NCBI GenBank assembly: GCA_017405875.1 | Contig: JAFQZM010000022.1 | Coordinates: 1 to 64,000 of the forward strand | DNA from: a bacterium | GTDB lineage: Bacteria > UBP6 > UBA1177 | Direction: 5' to 3' | Length of the DNA: 64,000 nucleotides | In this document: one piece after another, positions 48,592 through 49,883 of the stretch | Layout of the letters: every line of letters starts with the position of its first letter | Position numbering within the stretch: position 1 is the first letter of the stretch | Position numbers and translations under genes: made by a program | The notes under the pieces: model-generated | What the model was told of the DNA's origin: nothing | The model's database searches: none | What the model saw: the letters and a program-made list of their open reading frames with translations, nothing else

Positions 48592-49389
48592 GTGCGAGAC
48601 TTTATTGAACAGCTAGGTTCCAAGGCGGTAAGCACTTCTAAAAACGTTTCGGGTTTCTGCGTATTCTGCCTAAAATGTCTGCGCGAATTTCTTCAGGGAT
48701 CGTTTTTCAACCGCGCCGCATTCGATATTCTCGTCATGCAGATATTCTTCACGGCGTATCAGCTTCTGAATTTTTTCGTTGTTCTGAGTGCGGTTTTCGG
48801 CAGCATTTTCATCGGTATCGTTTTCCAGACTGTCAAAAGTTTCGGTCTTGTCCAGTATTTGGGAAACATCATCATGGGTGTTGTCGTTCTTGAGTTTTCA
48901 CCGCTCATTACGGTTGTTCTGCTTGCTCTCAGAAGCTCGTCTGCCGTCAATTCGGAGATCGCCGTCATGAAGGTAAACCGCGAAATCGATGCGCTTGAAT
49001 CTTTCGGGATCGATCCGGTCGTTTATCTTTTTCTGCCGCGAATCATCAGTTTTATCATAAGTGTCACGATCCTTTCTTCGCTTTTCGCGATAATAGTCCT
49101 TTTCAGCGGCTTCATTTTCAGCAGCATAATTTTTGAAATGAGTGCCGGAATCTTTTCAGAAATGATCACGAAATCAATCTCGGTTTTTGATATAATTCTG
49201 TTTTACATAAAAACGATAGTCTTCGGCTTCTTCATATCGGTTATCCCGCTTTACAACGGCTGGAAAACTCAGTACCGTTTTACCGATGTTCCGGTTTCGG
49301 TTCTGCGCGGAATGATGGGCGTTTTCATGTCAATAGTTTTTGTGGAGATTGTGTCATTAGTAGCAAGATTCTTCCTGAATTCTTTGTGA
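48592..49389 (+). CDS. MlaE/YrbE-family ABC transporter permease
   Basis: 265 residues, five to six predicted membrane helices. LRSSSAVNSEIAVMKVNREI then DALESFGIDPVVYLFLPRII is the MlaE signature (GR.GSAiaAElGtMkvteQIDALevmGi in relatives). The family forms the membrane part of Mla/Mce-type lipid transporters that move phospholipid between inner and outer membranes. The start is GTG at 48592 after GGGGGA. Its last codons overlap the start of the ATPase-like gene by four bases. mlaD (MCE) is not next to it. Confidence 0.85.
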   Translation: MRDFIEQLGSKAVSTSKNVSGFCVFCLKCLREFLQGSFFNRAAFDILVMQIFFTAYQLLNFFVVLSAVFGSIFIGIVFQTVKSFGLVQYLGNIIMGVVVLEFSPLITVVLLALRSSSAVNSEIAVMKVNREIDALESFGIDPVVYLFLPRIISFIISVTILSSLFAIIVLFSGFIFSSIIFEMSAGIFSEMITKSISVFDIILFYIKTIVFGFFISVIPLYNGWKTQYRFTDVPVSVLRGMMGVFMSIVFVEIVSLVARFFLNSL

Positions 49390-49814
49390 GCGAGGCAGAG
49401 CTTAAAGCCCGCGCCAAAGCGATCGGCGCCGAACAGCGTGTCGGTTTTGTATCGCCCGATATCCCGCTTCTTTCGAACCTGAGCGTTTACGACAACATTT
49501 CACTTATTCCGCGTTATCTGACGGCTGAAAAAGACGATGCGATACGTGCCGAAATCGAAAAACTGCTCGCTCTTCTGGAGATTTCAGATTCAATAGGCAA
49601 AAAAACTTTTCAGATTGATTCCGATACGGTTTTCAAAGTCAAACTGCTGCGCGCCCTCATGCTGAAAGATTCCGTCACCGTCATCGACAGGCCGTTTGTC
49701 ATGCTGAGTACTGCCGCCGACATAAAACCTATCGTGAAAATGCTTGACACGCTTGAGCTGGACGGAAAAAAAGTCGTGTTTTTCGATTTCGAGTGGAATA
49801 AAAACAAATATTAA
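49386..49814 (+). CDS. truncated, Walker-A-less MlaF-like ABC ATPase fragment
   Basis: 142 residues. RVGFVSPDIPLLSNLSVYDN then ISLIPRYL aligns with the region after the Q-loop of MlaF (SLTVFENVAF in relatives); the C-terminal part aligns with the signature and Walker B region, but both are altered: IDSDTVFKVKLLRALML in place of LSGGxxxRxALARAL, and VTVIDRPF in place of LLLDEPT. The first 70 residues of the family, including Walker A, are absent. It cannot be a normal ATPase. The GTG start overlaps the permease stop, so translation is coupled and maintained. It may be a regulatory pseudo-ATPase or a decaying gene. Confidence 0.62.
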   Translation: MSEAELKARAKAIGAEQRVGFVSPDIPLLSNLSVYDNISLIPRYLTAEKDDAIRAEIEKLLALLEISDSIGKKTFQIDSDTVFKVKLLRALMLKDSVTVIDRPFVMLSTAADIKPIVKMLDTLELDGKKVVFFDFEWNKNKY

Positions 49815-49815
49815 T

Positions 49816-49870
49816 CGGAATCCCGAGATTCCGGAATCAGGTTCGCGCCGCCGGGATCCCGAGATCCCGG
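49816..49870. terminator. twin hairpins between converging genes
   Basis: CGGAATC, CCGA, GATTCCG (49816-49833) and CCGGGATC, CCGA, GATCCCGG (49851-49870). The two stems differ slightly but have the same CCGA loop. They fill the 69-base gap between the ATPase-like gene and the converging lpdA and could end transcription from both sides, though no T-run follows on the plus strand. They may also belong to a dispersed palindrome family. Confidence 0.55.
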
Positions 49871-49883
49871 TATTATTTCGGCG

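Follow-up and report, generated by a model that had tools for sequence, protein, structure and literature searches.

For Mla systems it is disputed in which direction lipids move between the two membranes and what energizes this movement. In ABC transporters the NBD dimer needs the P-loop and the signature from opposite subunits, and it is the helical-subdomain/Q-loop side of the NBDs that normally docks on the permease's coupling helices. Degenerate nucleotide sites, with NBDs that have lost catalytic residues, are found in the ABC transporters TAP and Cdr1, but these keep at least one competent site, whereas the only NBD encoded in the system described here has none. In MlaFEDB, MlaE binds MlaF through the coupling helix that lies between its TM2 and TM3 (PMC7790496), the P-loop mutant MlaF K47R has no ATPase activity (PMC5016091), and lipid transfer from MlaD to MlaC was reported to proceed without ATP and to be prevented by ATP hydrolysis (PMC10212509), according to the available parts of these papers. 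In the mycobacterial Mce1 system (YrbE1A/B, MceG, Mce1N), as far as the accessible text goes, MlaE-type permeases perhaps take their ATPase from elsewhere and a non-catalytic protein sits at the NBD docking site (PMC10517005). The three-component MlaEFD of Veillonella parvula is described, in the accessible portion of PMC10665443, as having the order MlaE-F-D, an elongated MlaD, no MlaA or MlaC nearby and an MlaF close to that of model diderms.

The locus studied here resembles each of these systems in part. It shares with E. coli MlaFEDB the MlaE and MlaD homologues and the fold of MlaF residues 32-208, but its NBD is dead as judged by its motifs and only 152 aa long, its gene cluster holds no ATPase, and a helical lipoprotein of unmatched fold accompanies MlaD. 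The dead NBD and the lipoprotein also set it apart from the V. parvula system, with which it shares the gene order, the elongated MlaD and the lack of MlaA and MlaC among its neighbours. The likeness to Mce1 extends to the permease type, the ATPase that perhaps comes from elsewhere and a non-catalytic protein at the docking site, docking being our proposal here; however, Mce1N is a membrane protein according to the title of the paper, whereas the docking protein here would be a degenerate NBD encoded beside its permease.

The window, that is, the whole stretch of 64,000 nucleotides that was analysed, comes from a genome of 2.5 Mb (G000) that is 99% complete and belongs to the candidate phylum UBP6. 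On the forward strand, positions 48592-49389 encode a permease of 265 aa that belongs to the MlaE family (PF02405, E 2e-44, profile positions 2-208 of 212) and shares 48-95% identity with its orthologues in 19 further genomes of UBP6. It is followed by an intact MlaF-like frame ending at 49814, as the first-pass annotation had read it, and we refer to the product as pseudo-MlaF. The same protein also occurs in named records, which are MAGs from the rumen or from digesters; two of these carry the UBP6 label.

Pseudo-MlaF is recognizable as an NBD, with a best E of 4e-7 against curated ABC ATPase profiles, although its 13.9 bits against Pfam ABC_tran (PF00005) lie below the curated cut-off of 25 and leave it outside that family. 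Used as a profile against PDB NBD sequences it gave E values down to 7e-10, and the profile-profile comparison with full-length MlaF gave a probability of 97.7 and an E of 1.9e-12. The AlphaFold model of the 152-aa protein had a mean pLDDT of 92.0 (residues 1-10 averaging 77) and a pTM of 0.87; its input, an alignment of 20 sequences (A1), included the residues encoded from the ATT start proposed below, and the model is thus no independent proof of that start. The model has the ABC NBD fold, with Foldseek matches from E 1.3e-7 and VIA Z scores of 13-15, and its residues 1-152 superpose on MlaF 32-208 (6xbd_I) with a Z of 14.3, 149 aligned residues and an rmsd of 2.9. Since this alignment runs over the whole length, the strand that precedes the P-loop in MlaF numbering appears to be kept, as modelled strand 4-10, and the protein is not just the second half of an MlaF, as had been thought; what it lacks relative to MlaF is the N-terminal part, the P-loop and a stretch in the interior.

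The earlier reading of the motifs, by contrast, held: there is no Walker A, and the signature and Walker B are altered. In the motif table for the window protein, Walker A is a gap, the Q-loop reads VSPDI, the signature IDSDTV, Walker B VTVIDRP (D-R, not D-E) and the H-loop FFDFE, a pattern that does not qualify as that of a functional ATPase at Walker A, the signature or Walker B. All 5 UBP6 rows that were scored depart from the functional motif at Walker A, the Q-loop Gln, the signature, the Walker B Glu and the H-loop His. The Walker B replacement D/E-R-P-F is invariant in 20/20 UBP6 copies, and 21 columns are invariant in the 20 sequences, including PLLSNL, N47, L98-R99-A100 and the R-P-F at the former Walker B.

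A permease search across 61 genomes yielded 20 orthologous loci, our own genome counted, and in all 20 an MlaF-like frame follows the permease. The gene had been given a GTG start at 49386 and a four-base overlap with the permease, but its frame stays open upstream of that codon. At 30 nt upstream of the GTG position, the 20 loci have ATT (18) or ATC (2) followed by AGY and preceded, at 4-8 nt, by a stretch of the GGAGG/GAGG type; in the window this is a Shine-Dalgarno-like GGAG within the permease gene (49345-49348, forward strand, spacing 8 nt). ATT behind such a stretch is also present in a 21st copy (G001), whose contig begins just upstream, giving ATT or ATC with a Shine-Dalgarno-like stretch in 21/21 copies from the phylum. 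A start codon at the GTG position, in contrast, occurs in 11/20 loci only, and three loci (L024, L025 and L027) have no in-frame ATG, GTG or TTG before codon 45. Since the GTG position is not conserved as a start codon among the loci, GTG 49386 was rejected, and since ATT/ATC is conserved together with its Shine-Dalgarno-like stretch, the pseudo-MlaF gene most likely spans 49356-49814 on the forward strand, starting at ATT 49356 and overlapping the permease by 34 nt (49356-49389) rather than four; the overlap is 22 nt in family f3 and G018.

Codon usage in the overlap lends this start support, if not proof. The overlaps of family f3, which is GC-rich (GC3 0.84), contain TCA TTA in 5/5 copies, these five being related, although elsewhere in the same two genes TCA makes up 3/114 Ser codons and TTA 3/270 Leu codons. 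The codon at the Shine-Dalgarno place is GAG in 20/20 loci versus 171/363 Glu codons elsewhere in the same genes, an argument that is weak by itself, given that the Deferribacterota permeases, as far as their ends were read, have a conserved Val-Glu as well. In the Deferribacterota homologues described below, the equivalent position carries an ATG start. One substitution turning an ATGA overlap into ATTA may have given rise to the ATT start, as it would have removed the permease stop, and the conserved ATT/ATC would add a rare natural case of non-canonical initiation.

Pseudo-MlaF was found in 21/28 UBP6 genomes from 7 genera, with the frame intact and always short, and conservation on this scale excludes chance. 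The first-pass annotation had suggested looking for the short form in relatives, and had taken full-length ATPases in all close relatives, at the same locus, as the sign of a recent deletion; the short form is indeed conserved, and 0/21 copies are full length. A strong orthologous MlaD is present in 20/28 UBP6 genomes, all of them pseudo-MlaF carriers (20/21 carriers), the one carrier in which it was not found being G011 (72% complete). The 7 genomes without pseudo-MlaF had no orthologous MlaD, save a weak match in G025 (E 7e-9, 23% identity), and the absence of pseudo-MlaF from G014 (97% complete) and others thus goes with a missing MlaD. MlaD lies directly behind pseudo-MlaF in all 8 carriers outside genus g1. 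Within g1, the genus of the window, the system is split and MlaD is found elsewhere in the 12 genomes that have it; that of the window's own genome, at C18:141107-142045, is an MCE protein by its PF02470 match (2.5e-7). In the five UBP6 loci read (L084-L087, L090), MlaD is followed by a lipoprotein of about 215-220 aa. The model of this lipoprotein (L084:2449-3105 and homologues, alignment A6) is helical with a pLDDT of 91.1 and had no match in the PDB at E 0.001 or better. No MlaA or MlaC was seen among the neighbour genes read. Judged by this co-occurrence, pseudo-MlaF is a fixed subunit of a distinct MlaE/pseudo-MlaF/MlaD/lipoprotein system. Following the MlaD-lipoprotein pair, an ankyrin-repeat protein (by Pfam; L084:1294-2436) is encoded in the window's genome and a similar-looking ORF in G015 (L086:7081-8211).

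The short form is not confined to UBP6. In the Deferribacterota, the phylum of G152, a mini form was present in 34/50 genomes, including those of Deferribacter desulfuricans SSM1 and Calditerrivibrio nitroreducens DSM 19672. Twenty loci were fetched and 18 proteins read (L207 and L209 were left out), and these mini forms fall in the same length class as the UBP6 protein. The order MlaE, mini pseudo-MlaF, MlaD, lipoprotein was found in five Deferribacterota loci (L213-L217), as in UBP6, and the lipoproteins align at 14-39% identity.

The permeases nearest to that of the window in other groups also accompany odd forms of MlaF. In the order of G044 such a permease is present in 9/13 genomes, and its MlaF (L131-L139) has an intact P-loop, an LSxGE signature (LSTGE/LSMGE), no H-loop histidine and a Walker B that reads WDNP in two of three families and otherwise WDEP, possibly representing a stage midway through the decay. 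Within the class of G033, with a related permease in 3/4 genomes, MlaF (L140-L142) is full length, has no P-loop (VESEW.ARL) and is conserved between two genera. Of 386 genomes searched with the permease profile A4, 62 matched at E values up to 1e-48; 38 of the 62 lie outside the UBP6, G044 and G033 groups, and 26 of these 38 were examined. The resulting permease tree had 53 rows, used 8 of the 20 UBP6 permeases and left out L136 (ATPase cut by a contig end) and L137 (masked stretch). Its rows were labelled from the motif table as pseudo (no P-loop), semi (P-loop, no Walker B glutamate) or intact (both). The canonical clade (support 100/100) has an intact MlaF in 17/17 rows, and the clade of the window permease, with 36 rows, has 22 without a P-loop, 8 with a P-loop and no Walker B glutamate, and 6 intact. 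The labels are strongly clustered on the tree (0/200 shuffles as low), and the rows without a P-loop come from 13 families. The UBP6 permeases are sister to those of G152 and G287 (100/99), both of which have a mini form of 171-175 aa. In our first permease tree they joined the G044 and G033 groups on long branches; in the wider tree the canonical clade and the second one stay apart, though it does not fix the number of independent decays.

How, then, is pseudo-MlaF to be understood? With its catalytic motifs gone and its protein short, the gene might be taken for a decaying pseudogene or the relic of a recent deletion, but with intact frames in 21 genomes and 7 genera, and with no UBP6 copy of the locus being full length, this is barely conceivable. 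Selection speaks against it too, the dN/dS calculation proposed in the first-pass annotation having yielded a within-genus median of 0.160 (range 0.077-0.237, Nei-Gojobori) over 44 pairs, one of 45 being left out for a dS that could not be computed and dS values near 0.9 being partly saturated. The median is 0.121 in the Q-loop region (columns 12-55) and 0.066 around the degenerate Walker B, the two regions under the strongest constraint, compared with 0.056 for the permease (Nei-Gojobori, genus); six Deferribacterota pairs from one genus gave 0.088-0.142. An ATPase that is active through unconventional residues would suit the modelled ABC NBD fold, yet we hold it to be highly improbable, given that the P-loop region is deleted, all five motif positions are changed in the UBP6 rows scored, and a P-loop (Walker A GxxxxGK[S/T]) was found in 0/38 of the mini forms read. 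DEP was likewise found in 0/38, and the letters LSG, at any position, in 3/38. Improbable as well, if less so, is a frameshift in the overlap that would produce a permease-NBD fusion and no separate pseudo-MlaF: the frames do overlap by 22-34 nt and several copies have no ordinary start codon, but by eye no slippery heptamer is conserved in the 20 aligned overlaps, the ribosome-binding-like stretch and ATT/ATC keep a conserved spacing, and the Deferribacterota homologues begin with an ordinary ATG. Taken from the sequences, the evidence supports pseudo-MlaF as a catalytically dead but conserved NBD remnant that is coupled to MlaE and under purifying selection.

As to its function, we lean towards a lipid conduit of MlaE and MlaD in which the dead NBD is kept as the scaffold for docking and would supply no energy. 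Pseudo-MlaF appears to have lost all ATP-handling elements but to retain the helical subdomain along with what follows the Q-loop, and this side, its most conserved retained part, would be expected to hold the MlaE coupling helix. Since it has neither P-loop nor signature, a homodimer or a mixed dimer with MlaF would have no complete site, and this together with the conserved docking side favours a scaffold that holds MlaE in one conformation. Two copies may dock under the MlaE dimer, holding it together and fixing it in a nucleotide-free-like state, and MlaE, the elongated MlaD and an outer-membrane lipoprotein would then form the conduit. Initiation at ATT inside the permease gene would couple synthesis of pseudo-MlaF to that of the permease and may keep its level low. 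A point against the conduit is that an unenergized path would equilibrate lipids.

The most serious alternative, which we consider unlikely, is that a full-length MlaF from another Mla system drives the permease at times, with pseudo-MlaF acting as a competitor or placeholder that blocks or stabilizes the docking site. The first-pass annotation had likewise suggested that another MlaF supplies the hydrolysis, and had advised looking for a separate full-length mlaF with mlaD elsewhere. Such genes do exist: besides the pseudo-MlaF permease, the window's genome has two further MlaE, one in a complete MlaE-MlaF-MlaD operon (L081) and one of 348 aa with a long N-terminal extension (L082:4256-5302), in which Pfam sees MlaE only, and a second full-length MlaF-like ATPase lies as an orphan at C3:15323 (L103:2809-3561), far from the 348-aa MlaE. 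The second, higher-scoring MlaE in 34/34 Deferribacterota genomes with a mini form, together with the further MlaE in UBP6, makes a borrowed ATPase possible, and a precedent is offered by the mycobacterial Mce permeases, which share one MceG and in which Mce1N displaces MceG from YrbE1B (PMC10517005, available part). However, although the window's genome has three MlaE for two intact MlaF-type ATPases, both ATPases have an MlaE of their own, L081 by position and that at C3:15323 by synteny, its counterpart in G018 (L105) lying near the 348-aa MlaE; hydrolysis by another MlaF is thus possible but not supported. Furthermore, in many families of the clade the ATPase has decayed in step with the permease, a pattern more in keeping with the loss of a motor than with a separate regulator. 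Extending the scaffold reading to the whole clade, we tentatively propose, as a possibility that we rate below the scaffold itself, that an ancient and widespread MlaE-MlaD branch gave up ATP hydrolysis, its NBD decaying stepwise to a scaffold in at least 13 sampled families and ending in the mini-NBD of UBP6 and the Deferribacterota; the complexes would be motorless lipid conduits, perhaps opposing an active Mla pump in the same cell.

In the open-access literature we found neither a catalytically dead MlaF subunit nor a system of this kind described. A phylogenomic study of 1083 genomes identified MlaF by the PRK11831 profile and synteny and stated an uncertainty in MlaF annotation (PMC10665443); the part of its text that was available does not describe a dead MlaF and has 0 occurrences of 'degenerate'. 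Surveys of MlaF by a canonical profile would miss subunits of the pseudo-MlaF type. A naturally occurring MlaE-MlaD system that encodes no NBD apart from one incapable of handling ATP would show either a role of MlaE and MlaD without a motor or ATPase sharing in diderms, and the similar remnants in other bacterial groups suggest, at the level of sequence, a lipid-transport system that keeps its motor only as a structural part. With D. desulfuricans and C. nitroreducens as cultured and sequenced hosts, the system is testable.

At the locus itself, a promoter scan of the forward strand gave no signal above chance. Past the stop codon of pseudo-MlaF, at window positions 49816-49871, there is a pair of short palindromes that have the core CCCGAGAT in common and are terminator-like by scan.
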